Source: Sandaracinus amylolyticus
GTDB lineage: Bacteria; Myxococcota_A; Polyangia; Polyangiales; Sandaracinaceae
NCBI RefSeq assembly: GCF_000737325.1
Contig: NZ_CP011125.1
Coordinates: forward strand, 1,178,001 to 1,242,000
Length of the DNA stretch: 64,000 bases
Direction: 5' to 3'
Below the pieces are notes generated by a model. The model saw only the letters and a list, made by a program, of their open reading frames with translations, had not been told where the DNA came from and made no database searches. Below, piece by piece: positions 50,028 to 56,944 of the stretch; position 1 is the stretch's first letter; each line of letters opens with the position of its first letter. The position numbers and the translations under genes were made by a program.

Positions 50028-51107
50028 TCAGGGCGCGCACATGTCGCTCCAGGCGCAGCCGTAGACCGGCGGCAGGCAGTACTGCCGCCCCGTCCCGCCG
50101 CTGCTGAGCGAGCACGACCGGAAGTTCGTGCCGTTGCGATGCAGGCACTCCGCGCCCGCGACCGGCTGACACGCGCCCCAGCCGCATGAGCCGTTGCACA
50201 CGCGCTCGCCGCACGCGTCGGTGGGCGAGCACGCGCTGCGCGAGCCCGGCGCGCAGACGCCTTCGCCGGCGCACCCGCCGACGTTCGTCCACGTGCCCCA
50301 CGCGCAGCCGCTCGAGCAGGTGCGCGCCTGCATCTGCGTCCCGCAGTTGCCGCAGGGCACGGTGCGCGACTCGGTCGTGCCCGGCGTGCACGAGCCCGCG
50401 CCGCCGGTGCACGCGCCCCACGCGCCGAACTCGCCCCACGTGCACGACGACGCGCAGGTGCGCGTGCGCGTCTGCGATCCACACGCGCAGCTCTGCGACT
50501 CGCTCGTCGTCGTGCCCGGCGCGCACACGCCTTCGCCCTCGCACGCGAACGCGCTCCACGTGCACGCATCGCTGCACGTGCGGCGCTGGGTCCCACAGTT
50601 GCCGCACCCTCCGCCGGTGTCGACGTCACCGGGAGAGCACTCACCGGCGTCCATGCAGTCTCCGTCGTTCGTCCACGATCCGTCGACGCAGACCTGGCGC
50701 TGCGTCCCGCACCTCGCGCACGCGACGGTGCGCGGCGCGGAGCCGGGCGTGCAGTCGCAGCTCGCGGGCGCGTCGCACGCGCTCCACACGCCGTCCTCGC
50801 ATCGCTGGAGGCCGGGGCCGCACGCGCCTTCGCAGTCGCGCTGGGCGGTGCTGGAGACCGTGGGATCGTCGTCGTCGCAGTCGACGCTCGCGTCGATCCC
50901 GTCGTCGTCGAAGTCGGCGACGGGGACACAGGACCCCGCGACGCAGGTCTCGGAGGTGCCGCACGGGGGATCGCAGACCCCGGCGTCGCCCGCGCGCGCG
51001 GCGTCGCGGCGACCGCCGTCCTGGCCGCGTGGGCTCACCTCGGCGCCCGTCGCGCACGCGGCGAGCGCGAGCGCGAGCACGGAGAAACGCACTGCGTTCC
51101 GCACCAC
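50028..51107 (-). CDS. Secreted protein with tandem Cys-rich repeats
   Basis: About 359 aa from GTG 51107 (a GTG at 51104 and a TTG at 51158 are alternatives). The signal sequence ends in a lipobox-like LALAAC. After a DxDxD stretch (FDDDGIDASVDCDDDD), about five units of 35-40 residues share the pattern CTPG, then CGxCGTQxRTC, then CxW (for example CGNCGTQRRTCSDACTW; CGNCGTQMQARTCSSGCAW). All Cys are probably disulfide-bonded outside the cell. Function unknown; adhesive or matrix roles are plausible. Confidence 0.7.
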   Translation of the reverse strand: MVRNAVRFSVLALALAACATGAEVSPRGQDGGRRDAARAGDAGVCDPPCGTSETCVAGSCVPVADFDDDGIDASVDCDDDDPTVSSTAQRDCEGACGPGLQRCEDGVWSACDAPASCDCTPGSAPRTVACARCGTQRQVCVDGSWTNDGDCMDAGECSPGDVDTGGGCGNCGTQRRTCSDACTWSAFACEGEGVCAPGTTTSESQSCACGSQTRTRTCASSCTWGEFGAWGACTGGAGSCTPGTTESRTVPCGNCGTQMQARTCSSGCAWGTWTNVGGCAGEGVCAPGSRSACSPTDACGERVCNGSCGWGACQPVAGAECLHRNGTNFRSCSLSSGGTGRQYCLPPVYGCAWSDMCAP

Positions 51108-51181
51108 GATTCGATTGAACCCGATTCCGTCCGGCACGTCGACGGGCGCGCCGAGCAAGGCGGAGGCCAGAGGAGGACGCG

Positions 51182-51384: not shown

Positions 51385-51813
51385 ATGGGCACGAAGATCC
51401 TGAAGCGCGGGATGCGCGGTGACGATGTCCGCGACGTGCAGGAGAAGCTGCATCGGCTCGGGTTCGACGTGAAGGCCGACGGCATCTTCGGCGAGGAGAC
51501 CGAGCGCGCGGTGCATCGGCTGCAGACGCTCTTCGGCTACACCGTCGACGGCCTGGTCGGCGACGGCACGAAGAAGCTGATGGACGCGCAGATCGGGTAC
51601 GGATGGAACGCGAAGCTCCCGAACGCGCAGGAGCTCGCGCTGCGCGCGCAGGGCAAGCTCCCGGGCACGTCGGGCGGCGCGGGCGCGGAGGCGCGGCACT
51701 ACCCCGAGGAGACGCCGCGCTCGCCCACGATCCCCGACGCGCGCCACACCGCGGCGCCGACGAGCTCGACGTCGCACGTCGGCGGCGGCGCGCCGAGAAC
51801 GCCGAAGCGCTGA
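51385..51813 (+). CDS. Peptidoglycan-binding domain protein
   Basis: A 142-aa protein with one PG_binding_1 domain at about 5-65: LKRGMRGDDVRDVQEKLHRL, VKADGIFGEETERAVHRLQ, DGLVGDGTKKLM. The remaining 75 residues are a Pro/Thr/Ser-rich tail. No signal peptide is visible, so it is either exported by another route or binds inside. These domains also occur as targeting modules of phage and secretion-system effectors. Co-transcribed with the 64-aa gene upstream. Confidence 0.85.
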   Translation: MGTKILKRGMRGDDVRDVQEKLHRLGFDVKADGIFGEETERAVHRLQTLFGYTVDGLVGDGTKKLMDAQIGYGWNAKLPNAQELALRAQGKLPGTSGGAGAEARHYPEETPRSPTIPDARHTAAPTSSTSHVGGGAPRTPKR

Positions 51814-51863: not shown

Positions 51864-53138
51864 TCAGCCCGCGACGTGCTGCTCGTAGTACGTCACGCGC
51901 CCGTCGTGGCAGGCGACGAAGCGGATCGTCCCGTCCTGCGAGGCGACGATCGCGAGCCCCGTCGGGTGCGCTTGGACGAAGCGATACGCGGCGCGGTGGC
52001 GTGTCCCGACGTTCTCCTCGTCGTCCTCGATCGTCACCTCGCCCTCGGTGTCGAGCGCGCGATGGACGCGGAGCCCGTCGTGCACGACGCGACCGTGCGG
52101 CGGCGCGACCTCGACACCGAACGCGAGCAGCTCGAACCGCTTCGAGAGCACCACCGCGCCGTCGACCGCGGAGAGCGACGCGAGGGTGCGCGACAGCTCG
52201 AACACCGCGGACTCGATCTCCGCGAGGTCGTGCGAGTGCACGACGAAGTCGTCGGCGGTGATCGCCCGTCCGCCGTTGCCGCGCGCCCGCGCGAGCTCCG
52301 ACGTGATCACGCGCAGGAGCGCGCGGTAGCGAGCGCGCGCAGGCTCGCGCGCGAAGCGATACTTCGCGCGGAAGAGCGTCGAGAAGAGCGCCTCGCCGTG
52401 CGCGTCGGGCTCGGTGAAGAGGATGGTCCCGCCGTGGTGCGCCTCGCGCATCAGCCACAGCGCGCGCCGCACCATCTGCTGCGAGATCGATCGCACGAGC
52501 GACTCGTCGAGCGCGGGCCAGTCGGGCGCGCGCTCCGCGGCGTGCTGCTGCACCAGCTCGTTGCGCACGCTCTCGAAGAGCGCGGGCATCCACCGCGACG
52601 AGAACACGTCGGTGCGCAGCGTGACGAGGCGTCCGCCCTCGAGGCCCGCGACGAAGTGATCCCCGGCGTGCACCGAGATGCGCGCCGGGCCTCGCACGTG
52701 CACGACCGTCTTCGGCAGCATCACGACCGCGCGCGTCCGACCGCCCCACGTCGGAGCCAGCCACTGCGCGCCGGTCGTCATGATCCCCCAGATGCGCAGC
52801 TCGCCGCGCGCGTCGGGCTCGACGGCGACGACCGCGGTCTCGAACGGCGCGGCGACCGCGATGCGTCGCAGCTCGTCGACGTGGAAGGGGCGCGTGCGAT
52901 CGAGGCGCAGCACCAGCGGGCCGACGGCGGGGAGCGCCTCCGCCTCGCGCTCGGGCTGGCGCGCCAGCGCGACGCGCACCCTCACGGGGCGCCCTTCCTC
53001 GCGCAACATCGACGCGTGGTACGCGACCTCGAGGAGCGCGCGACGGAACTCGGCGAGCGGATCGGGCGATAGATCCGCCGGCCACTGCGACGCGACGAGC
53101 GCTTCGAGATCGTCGGGGTAGTGGAAGATCTCGGTCAC
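51864..53138 (-). CDS. Putative diadenylate cyclase (DisA_N/DAC-like) with large N-terminal sensor region
   Basis: A 424-aa protein from GTG 53138 (GGAGGTC upstream; earlier residues are not protein-like). The C-terminal 100 residues carry both DAC hallmarks: DGA at 326-328 (VDGAVVLSKRFELLAFGVEV) and GTRHRAA at 378-384, then AIVASQDGTIRFVACHDG. These catalyse c-di-AMP formation from two ATP in DisA/CdaA. The first 300 residues are unlike DisA or CdaA and match my recollection of a DACNV-type sensor region. No transmembrane segment. Activity is inference; c-di-AMP is little described in this phylum. Confidence 0.75.
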   Translation of the reverse strand: MTEIFHYPDDLEALVASQWPADLSPDPLAEFRRALLEVAYHASMLREEGRPVRVRVALARQPEREAEALPAVGPLVLRLDRTRPFHVDELRRIAVAAPFETAVVAVEPDARGELRIWGIMTTGAQWLAPTWGGRTRAVVMLPKTVVHVRGPARISVHAGDHFVAGLEGGRLVTLRTDVFSSRWMPALFESVRNELVQQHAAERAPDWPALDESLVRSISQQMVRRALWLMREAHHGGTILFTEPDAHGEALFSTLFRAKYRFAREPARARYRALLRVITSELARARGNGGRAITADDFVVHSHDLAEIESAVFELSRTLASLSAVDGAVVLSKRFELLAFGVEVAPPHGRVVHDGLRVHRALDTEGEVTIEDDEENVGTRHRAAYRFVQAHPTGLAIVASQDGTIRFVACHDGRVTYYEQHVAG

Positions 53139-53255
53139 GAGAGCCGACCTCCGCGCGACATTGGATCGCGCCTTTTCGGAACATGGCGCAAGCCGGAGAT
53201 CCCGGACAGGCGGCACGAGGGGTGCTCCACGTGCTGCACGCACCCGGAGCTGCGC

Positions 53256-54698
53256 ATGTCGGAGCACGAGCACGAGGAGTCACGCCGCGCCGCGAGGCGC
53301 AGCGTCACACGGTCGGACGACGGCACGCTCCGGAGCGCGCGTCGTCGCCGCATCCGCGAAGAGCAGCACGCGCGCACGCTCTGGGCGAGCTACGCGCTGC
53401 TCCTCGTCGGGGTCTGGCTGATGCTCGCGCCGCTCACGTTCGGCGAAGAGGTGCTCGCGGAAGCGACGCGCGCCTCGTGGATCCCGAGCAGCGCGCGCGC
53501 GACGGTCGCGCGCTGGAACCAGGTGATCTGCGGCGCGGTCCTCACGCTCGCCGCGTGGCGCATGCTCGAGCCCCATCGCGCGATCGCGCGGCGGATCGCG
53601 CTCGGGGTCGGCGTGTGGCTCAGCCTCGCGCCCGTGGTGCTCGCCGCGCCGAGCGCCAGCATCTACGCGAACGACACGCTCGTCGGCATGCTCGTCATCG
53701 CGCTCGGCGCGCTGGTGCCCGGCGCGATCGACGAGGGCATCTTCGCGAAGAGCAACGCGGCCGCCGTGCCGCCCGGGTGGTCCTACGATCCCTCGAGCTG
53801 GCCGCAGCGCGTCGTCACGATCGTGCTCGCGCTCGCGGCGTTCCTCGTCGCGCGCTCGCTCGCGGCGTTCCAGCTCGGCTACGACGAGCGCGCGTGGGAG
53901 CCGCTCTTCGTGCGCCAGACCGCGAGCGCGACCGACCTGGCCGCGTCGAGCCCGTGGATGATCTCCGACGCGGCGCTCGCGGCGTTCGTGTTCACGTTCG
54001 TGATGCTCGTCGGATTCGTCGCCGGCCCGGCGCGCTGGCGCACCGCGCCGTGGGTCGTCGTGCTGCAGGGCGCGCTCGTGATCCCGCTCGGCCTCGCGCA
54101 CGTCGCGATCACGATCGTGCACTCGGTCACGAGCGACGCGTGGAGCACGCCGCGCCTCGTCTCGTCGGCGCTCGCGCTGATCTTGATCGCGCTGGTCGGC
54201 GACGAGGTGATCGCGGCCTTCCAGCACCTCGCGCGCGTCCGCGCCGGCACGATCGACGAGCCGCTGCGCGAAGGGCGCGACGACGCGCGCACGCCCGATC
54301 TCGCCGAGGCGCGCGAGCGGCCGAGCGAGATCGTGCGCGCCTCGCTCTGGGGCGCGAGCGCGACGTGGAACCTGATCGCGTCGGTGCTGCTCGGCGCGCT
54401 GGTGATGATGCTGCCCGCGCTGATCGGGCTCGACGGCGGCGCGGCCGACGCGCTGCACGTCGGCGGTGCGCTCGCGGTCGCGTTCGCGCTGATCGCGACC
54501 GGCGAGGTGTTCCGCGCCGCGCGCTACGCGAACGTGCTCGTCGGCGCGGCGATCGCGATCCTGCCGATCGTGCTCGGCGTGCACGCGACCGACGCGCGCA
54601 TCCTCGGGATCGCGCTCGGCGTCGGGATCGCGCTCCTCGCGCTGCCGCGCACCGGCCGCGTCGAGCGATACGGGACCTGGGACCGCTTCGTCGTCTGA
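53256..54698 (+). CDS. Multi-span membrane protein with SPW-like repeats
   Basis: A 480-aa protein starting at ATG 53256 with GGAG upstream. After a basic start, the first block (about 40-135) has four hydrophobic segments with YALLLVGVWLMLAPLTFGEE and RIALGVGVWLSLAPVVLAAP, which follow the SPW pattern of a W-L-x-L-A-P turn. A middle part (about 165-345) has further segments. The last block (about 365-475) again resembles an SPW pair. It may be a duplication of SPW domains around a different core. Function unknown. Confidence 0.7.
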   Translation: MSEHEHEESRRAARRSVTRSDDGTLRSARRRRIREEQHARTLWASYALLLVGVWLMLAPLTFGEEVLAEATRASWIPSSARATVARWNQVICGAVLTLAAWRMLEPHRAIARRIALGVGVWLSLAPVVLAAPSASIYANDTLVGMLVIALGALVPGAIDEGIFAKSNAAAVPPGWSYDPSSWPQRVVTIVLALAAFLVARSLAAFQLGYDERAWEPLFVRQTASATDLAASSPWMISDAALAAFVFTFVMLVGFVAGPARWRTAPWVVVLQGALVIPLGLAHVAITIVHSVTSDAWSTPRLVSSALALILIALVGDEVIAAFQHLARVRAGTIDEPLREGRDDARTPDLAEARERPSEIVRASLWGASATWNLIASVLLGALVMMLPALIGLDGGAADALHVGGALAVAFALIATGEVFRAARYANVLVGAAIAILPIVLGVHATDARILGIALGVGIALLALPRTGRVERYGTWDRFVV

Positions 54699-55696: not shown

Positions 55697-56944
55697 ATGA
55701 GCCCGAAGGACGAACGACGCATCATCCTGCTCCTCGCAGCGGTCCAGTTCGTCAACATCCTCGACTTCATGATCGTGATGCCGCTCGGCCCCGACTTCGC
55801 GGGCGACCTCGGCATCCCGCTCTCGCACCTCGGCACGATCGGCGGCGCGTACACGCTCTCCGCGGCGCTCTCGGGCTTCGCCGGCGCGTTCTTCCTCGAC
55901 CGCTTCGATCGTCGCCCCGCGCTCGCGCTCTCGCTGCTCGGCCTCGCGATCGGCACCGTCGGCGGCGCGCTCGCGACCGGGCTCGAGTCGCTGCTCCTCG
56001 CGCGCGTCGTCGCAGGCGCGTTCGGCGGCCCCGCGACGTCGGTCGCGATGTCGATCCTCGCCGACGTGATCCCCGGCGAGCGCCGCGGTCGCGCGCTCGG
56101 CACGGTGATGATCGCGTTCTCGATCGCGTCGATCGTCGGCGTGCCCGTCGCGCTCGAGCTCGCGCAGCGCGGCAGCTGGCACACGCCGTTCGTCGCGACC
56201 GGCGCCCTCGCGCTGATCGCGTCGATCGCCGCGTGGCTCGTGCTGCCCTCGATGCGCGCGCACCTCGACATCGAGCACGAGCCCGCGCTCGACGGGTTCC
56301 GTCACCTGCTCACGCGCCCCGTCACGCTGCTCTCGTACGCGATGACGTGGGTCGCGATGATGGGCGGGTTCGTCCTCATCCCGAACATCGCGTCGTACGT
56401 GCAGCTCAACCTGCACTATCCGCGCGAGCACCTCGGTCTGCTCTACGGCGCCGGCGGGCTGCTCAACTTCGCGACGATGCGTCCGATCGGTCGGCTCGTC
56501 GATCGCATCGGCTCGTTCCGCGTCCAGGCGATCGGCACCGTGCTGATCGTCGTCGTGACGTGGATCGGGTTCGTGTGGTCGCCGCCGTGGATGCCGGTGC
56601 TCCCGGTGTTCGTGGGCTTCATGTTCGCGAGCGGCATGCGCAACGTCAGCTACAGCACGCTCACCTCGAAGGTGCCTTCGCCCGAGGAGCGCGCGCGCTT
56701 CATGTCGCTGCAGTCGATGGTCCAGCACCTCGGCTCCGCCGCCGGCGCGTTCCTCGGCTCGCAGCTCCTCGTCGAGGGCGCGGGCGGCGCGCTCGTGCAC
56801 ATGGATCGCGTCGCGTGGACCGCGATGGCGCTCATGATCGCGACGCCGGTGCTGATGCTCGCCGTCGAGTCGCGCGTCGCGCGCAGCGAGCGCATCGTCG
56901 CCGCGCTCGACCCCGTGCCCGTCGCGTCCTCTCGCGATCGATGA
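55697..56944 (+). CDS. Major facilitator superfamily transporter, DHA1-like
   Basis: A 415-aa protein with 12 predicted spans. Motif A lies after helix 2 as FFLDRFDRRPALALSLLG, preceded by VNILDFMIVMPLGPDFAGDL, the D-F-M-I-V-M start typical of Bcr/CmlA-like DHA1 exporters. Likely a drug or metabolite exporter. The start at ATG 55697 follows a long untranslated leader (172 bases after the previous gene). It overlaps the next MFS gene in ATGA. Confidence 0.85.
   Translation: MSPKDERRIILLLAAVQFVNILDFMIVMPLGPDFAGDLGIPLSHLGTIGGAYTLSAALSGFAGAFFLDRFDRRPALALSLLGLAIGTVGGALATGLESLLLARVVAGAFGGPATSVAMSILADVIPGERRGRALGTVMIAFSIASIVGVPVALELAQRGSWHTPFVATGALALIASIAAWLVLPSMRAHLDIEHEPALDGFRHLLTRPVTLLSYAMTWVAMMGGFVLIPNIASYVQLNLHYPREHLGLLYGAGGLLNFATMRPIGRLVDRIGSFRVQAIGTVLIVVVTWIGFVWSPPWMPVLPVFVGFMFASGMRNVSYSTLTSKVPSPEERARFMSLQSMVQHLGSAAGAFLGSQLLVEGAGGALVHMDRVAWTAMALMIATPVLMLAVESRVARSERIVAALDPVPVASSRDR

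Follow-up and report, generated by a model that had tools for sequence, protein, structure and literature searches.

A putative accessory c-di-AMP synthase with an N-terminal DACNV domain in Sandaracinus amylolyticus

The locus and its reading frame

The window, by which we mean the whole stretch of 64,000 nucleotides of Sandaracinus amylolyticus DNA that was analysed, contains a gene for a putative DACNV-DAC diadenylate cyclase at positions 51864..53138. The original prediction had placed the gene at exactly these coordinates but stated no strand; it is located on the minus strand. The gene has 424 codons, encoding 424 amino acids, with a GTG start at 53138 and the stop included in the coordinates, and is recognized by its open reading frame, a Shine-Dalgarno box, Pfam matches and a low dN/dS ratio. 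The Shine-Dalgarno-like GGAGG, read off the sequence, is located at 53148..53152 on the same strand, 9 nt upstream of the GTG, whereas the automatic list of open reading frames puts the start farther upstream, at 53273. Scans for promoters and terminators gave no match.

Comparison with the copy in a genome of the same genus (G002) showed 96% identity, with a dN/dS of 0.074 and 69 of the 85 differences at third codon positions. Thus, the gene is real and constrained, under strong purifying selection. The protein is soluble as judged by computation, and no hydrophobic or membrane-spanning segment was found in it (maximum 19-residue hydropathy of 1.17, as compared to 2.51 for the CdaA protein of the same genome).

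A gene for a peptidoglycan-binding protein (51385-51813, plus strand) and the DACNV-DAC gene are convergently oriented and therefore not part of one operon. On the opposite side, a gene for an SPW-repeat membrane protein is divergent and starts approximately 100 bp away. The window also contains a gene for an MFS transporter at 55712-56941 (plus strand); its highest-scoring NCBIfam model is the myxochelin exporter MxcK, with 235 bits as compared to a cut-off of 525. Another gene, at 50028-51158 (minus strand), encodes a cysteine-rich, probably secreted protein, the translation of which shows recurring CxxCG-like segments as well as a stretch rich in Asp; this protein is conserved in a genome of the same genus (L003).

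The C-terminal half has a DAC fold and intact catalytic motifs

An AlphaFold2 model of the whole protein, built on 71 sequences, reached a pLDDT of 89.4 and a pTM of 0.87. The catalytic DAC fold occupies the C-terminal half in this model (residues 187-424; 51867..52580, minus strand), starting at about residue 187-210 and including a family-specific helical insert at approximately residues 264-305. The structural match of this half to DisA had a VIA Z of 12.5 and an rmsd of 2.6 over 136 residues, and further matches were to the Mycoplasma DacM/CdaM and to CdaA (Z up to 12.0); the best non-DAC entry for the full-length model had a Z of 3.6. Thus, the computation shows that residues 187-424, approximately, are modelled as a DAC domain, which is larger than the last 120 residues.

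Both motifs named in the original prediction, DGA and GTRHRAA, are present, which is more than expected by chance, and their key residues are invariant in all 71 aligned sequences. The DGA motif (residues 326-328; 52155..52163, minus strand), which was not among the seeds used for finding relatives, is identical in 71/71 and is found in the context A-V-D-G-A (residues 324-328). The GTRHR motif (residues 378-382; 51993..52007, minus strand) is found in the context V-G-T-R-H-R-A-A (residues 377-384); its G, R and H are invariant in 71/71, the T is present in 66/71 and R382 in 70/71, a conservation that is partly built in, since the seeds included the GTRH stretch. The residues that never vary in the 71 aligned relatives, which come from several phyla, are D326, G327, A328, G341, G378, R380, H381, S400 and D402. 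D363, Y385 and R386 are likewise invariant and appear to be particular to the DACNV-DAC family. The residue that precedes DGA is a valine in the window protein and is never a histidine in the 71 sequences.

The Pfam DAC profile (PF02457) matched residues 372-408 with 22.9 bits (E 7e-5), as compared to a gathering cut-off of 27, which is a detection threshold and not a biological feature; a relative with the same architecture (L009) scored 28.3 bits and is above the cut-off. Among the 71 aligned relatives, the DACNV profile matched 71 and the DAC profile 63 (E 0.001). The identification as a diadenylate cyclase is consistent with the modelled fold (pLDDT 89) and the intact motifs; the DAC fold, the lack of which in a structure model was to speak against the original prediction, is present in the model.

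Some divergent DACNV proteins from Myxococcota have eroded motifs. In L023, DGA is replaced by DNA and RHR by RHP, while L031 has DGS and both L022 and L027 have RHQ. These four are possible non-cyclase paralogues, and loss of activity thus does occur in the wider family.

The N-terminal half is a DACNV domain with a DAC-like model

The original prediction held that the first 300 residues match neither DisA nor CdaA. No DisA or CdaA model matches the N-terminal half (residues 1-186; 52581..53138, minus strand) indeed, but it belongs to a named family. A profile check with the DACNV model, which had been suggested, gave a match of Pfam DACNV (PF21751, 'probable sensor domain DACNV') to residues 26-120 with 69.6 bits, well above the cut-off of 27. 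The placement of the first 300 residues outside the DAC domain holds for the DACNV part, which ends near residue 175-186, but not for the residues thereafter, where the DAC fold begins. With a DACNV domain above the curated cut-off on the N-terminal side of a DAC domain, the protein has the DACNV-DAC architecture.

We modelled residues 1-186 alone, with a resulting pLDDT of 82.4 and pTM of 0.79. In a Foldseek search with this model, the five top-ranking chains all belonged to DisA, with E-values of 0.03-0.07 and probabilities of 0.57-0.82, and the next entries were unrelated (E 1.5, probability 0.03). In VIA, all 16 listed entries were DACs, with a Z of 4.9-7.6 and alignments that covered at most 127 of the first 167 residues, although Z values below 8 may reflect a common arrangement. 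A likeness to fructose-1,6-bisphosphatase (Z 3.6) was dismissed as background, being absent when the domain was searched alone, and none of the matches to a viral structure library was convincing.

The secondary structure elements of the two halves follow in the same order, according to a pairing made by hand on the predicted models. Helix 32-43 of the N-terminal half corresponds to helix 212-233 of the C-terminal half, strands 54-58 and 75-84 to 237-242 and 256-261, helix 87-94 to 303-323, strands 102-108 and 114-121 to 328-332 and 337-344, and the final strands 144-150, 153-158 and 161-167 to 395-399, 405-411 and 414-420. The conserved W117-G118 of the DACNV domain is at the position of F340-G341 in the DAC domain; the invariant residues of DACNV are E48, R55, W117, G118, G123 and W126. 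The N domain contains neither a DGA nor an RHR motif within residues 1-186, and its model has no helix corresponding to the RHR helix at 379-390. It is therefore not proposed to be a cyclase.

Profile comparisons placed the N-terminal half on canonical DAC profiles in an identical register each time, with residues 142-181 on the post-RHR strands of CdaA, which is also how the VIA alignment to 2fb5 ends. A profile built from 30 myxobacterial CdaAs gave a score of 26.8, as compared to a maximum of 26.5 in 300 column shuffles and of 20.4 in 39 unrelated families. With broader or enriched DAC profiles the score was 17-19, above the column shuffles tested and within the range of the unrelated families, and the duplication is therefore unproven by sequence alone. 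No significant match was obtained between the N domain profile and the C domain of the DACNV-DAC family itself, and no match between the N domain and PDB sequences. Since the profile support is weak and depends on the profile used, the duplication reading draws mainly on the predicted structure. On balance, we somewhat favour the interpretation that DACNV arose as a copy of the DAC fold and became inactive, with loss of DGA and the RHR helix; as a dead DAC-like domain, it would regulate the live one through nucleotide binding or through competition in the face-to-face pairing on which DAC catalysis depends.

Distribution, phylogeny and gene neighbourhoods

When one genome per species was scanned with the whole protein as query, 176 relatives were obtained, 80 of which were kept. 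These are from Myxococcota, Verrucomicrobia, Rubrobacter, Thermoleophilia, Geobacteraceae, Nitrospirae, Planctomycetes, Cyanobacteria/Melainabacteria, Acidobacteria and Binatota. The architecture has a patchy distribution over at least nine phyla. In the phylogenetic tree, the window protein is located on a long branch together with 14 entries from Myxococcota and one labelled Proteobacteria (support 100/99). The phylum labels cluster strongly, with few changes, which may be due to transfer, paralogy or mislabelled bins. Three genomes of 12-13 Mb (G386, G388 and G360; L012-L014 and L028-L030) each have two DACNV-DAC paralogues of clearly different kinds. In another genome (G046; L007/L010) the gene is split into two frames, corresponding to query residues 34-287 and 304-420, and is either a pseudogene or an assembly error.

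DACNV was found in 16 of the 377 Myxococcota genomes and a canonical DAC in 338, including all 16 with DACNV. Among 30 DACNV genomes of many phyla, 26 contain, in addition, a DAC match that scores far above what a DACNV protein gives. A second, stronger match was not found in the other four (G412, G416, G417 and G419), most of which are draft bins, and in these the DACNV-DAC protein may be the only source of c-di-AMP. Given the coexistence with a canonical DAC in 16/16 myxobacterial and 26/30 wider genomes, the DACNV-DAC protein is predicted to serve in most cases as a second, accessory source. Its presence in Myxococcota singles out lineages that have added this predicted second source to a near-universal first. 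The remark in the original prediction that the messenger is hardly described in myxobacteria is thus accurate for the literature examined but not for the genes, since canonical DACs are near-universal in the phylum and S. amylolyticus has its own CdaA.

Relatives of the peptidoglycan-binding or SPW-repeat gene were found at none of the 80 related loci (up to 8 kb per side). Peptidoglycan-binding relatives are present in two genomes of the same family in which no DACNV was found (G003 and G007), and in a third (G004) on a different contig. There is no conserved operon partner, in that no gene family recurs across phyla beside DACNV-DAC genes. Lineage-specific neighbours are mutS, an amidase and a nucleotide-sugar dehydrogenase in Geobacteraceae, and carA and an AlkZ-like gene in Verrucomicrobia. 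Histidine kinases, a promiscuous class, account for 4 of 109 immediate neighbours. The potassium-linked neighbours, with Kup at L005 and L109 and UspA at L007, L069 and L070, are suggestive, though few.

In several Geobacteraceae (L097-L111, Geomonas and relatives), the gene is preceded, at a distance of at most about 20 bp, by one for a UDP-glucose/GDP-mannose dehydrogenase, in an operon-like arrangement. A role in phage defence was considered and rejected, as PADLOC gave no match for the DACNV-DAC protein or its neighbours. CBASS has been tied to a different DAC (PMC13092281).

Other c-di-AMP genes in the genome

The CdaA gene of S. amylolyticus is located at 5.485 Mb and matches TIGR00159 with 212 bits (cut-off 188.8); its neighbours were read as folP-like and YbbR-like genes. 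The search for c-di-AMP receptors that had been proposed along with the original prediction gave nine RCK_C matches, which are candidate targets, but no PF06153 receptor. An NrnA-like DHH-DHHA1 protein is present, with a score below the cut-off of its model. Since the genome search also found neither a ydaO-type riboswitch nor a PgpH-type 7TMR-HDED phosphodiesterase, the downstream pathway is a candidate one.

Proposed function and alternative explanations

We consider it likely that the protein is an accessory synthase of c-di-AMP that is controlled by its DACNV domain, based on the DACNV match, the DAC fold, the invariant motifs, the dN/dS of 0.074, the solubility and the separate CdaA. In DACs, c-di-AMP is formed from two ATP molecules by two domains in a face-to-face pair, and two catalytic halves of the window protein would be expected to do the same. 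In CdaA-type enzymes, a histidine before DGA goes with the use of Mn2+ or Co2+, and DisA-type enzymes, without this histidine, use Mg2+ (PMC12974146). Because the corresponding residue here is a valine and never a histidine in the 71 sequences, a preference for Mg2+ is predicted, as in DisA, over Mn2+/Co2+ as in CdaA. As a best guess, the DACNV domain would be a catalytically dead DAC-like domain that binds a small ligand, perhaps a nucleotide, or that blocks and permits pairing between the catalytic halves. A soluble cue would thereby tune c-di-AMP levels over and above the pool made by CdaA, with control of potassium or osmotic state through RCK_C-type transporters as a possible output. The steps beyond the synthesis of c-di-AMP are progressively less certain.

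The retained DAC fold could alternatively serve a protein that no longer makes c-di-AMP and is a receptor or scaffold binding ATP or c-di-AMP. Such a loss would agree with the PF02457 score below the cut-off, with the presence of a CdaA in the genome and with the eroded motifs of distant relatives such as L023. We regard it as rather unlikely, however, in view of the fact that all catalytic-motif residues are kept, both here and in the 71 relatives, and that the four genomes from other phyla in which no canonical DAC was found, mostly draft bins, may have the DACNV-DAC protein as their sole source. A DAC-fold enzyme that makes another product, such as a linear or mixed dinucleotide, would account for the family's own invariant D363, Y385 and R386 near the active site and for the helical insert in the catalytic half, but DGA, GTRHR and S400 fit the standard pattern, which makes this explanation very unlikely. 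To our knowledge, there is no DAC-domain enzyme with another main product.

The idea in the original prediction that the protein works with the adjoining peptidoglycan-binding protein as a sensor of cell-wall state is hardly credible. The two genes do adjoin, here and in the G002 genome of the same genus, but their convergent orientation, the lack of peptidoglycan-gene relatives within the stretches of at most 8 kb per side around the 80 loci and the occurrence of this gene apart from DACNV in genomes of the family all argue against a link. The preferred reading is that of a second c-di-AMP synthase under the control of its DACNV domain.

Comparison with known systems

Research on c-di-AMP centres on DisA and CdaA. 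The window protein shares with DisA the DAC fold, the lack of a histidine before DGA and the solubility; it differs in that its DAC domain is C-terminal, with no residues beyond it for the linker and the helix-hairpin-helix DNA-binding part. With CdaA it has the DAC fold and the motifs in common, but it has no transmembrane segment, no HDGA and no CdaR/YbbR neighbour. Consistently, an NCBIfam search with the window protein gave no match to a DisA, CdaA (TIGR00159) or other DAC model.

The protein shows no type-level difference from the DACNV-DAC enzymes (PF21751 and PF02457), which have the same domain order with DACNV above the cut-off, and is a long-branch member of this type within Myxococcota. 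DACNV being a named Pfam family, the architecture is already catalogued, reportedly by Galperin in 2023 ('All DACs in a row', J Bacteriol). In a literature search we found no experimental study of a DACNV-type enzyme, and the type is known but apparently uncharacterised; it spans Myxococcota, Rubrobacter, Geobacteraceae, Verrucomicrobia, Planctomycetes and Nitrospirae. The interpretation of DACNV as a dead twin of the DAC domain is possibly the new part. If true, it gives the family a concrete regulatory hypothesis, namely nucleotide sensing or control of dimerisation by a dead DAC sensor. Degenerate GGDEF domains regulate c-di-GMP enzymes and, as proposed for the DACNV domain, are inactive copies of a cyclase fold located next to an active domain; the folds are unrelated and the likeness is an analogy only. 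In these terms, the DACNV-DAC proteins would be tandem DACs, in parallel to the c-di-GMP enzymes with degenerate GGDEF domains.
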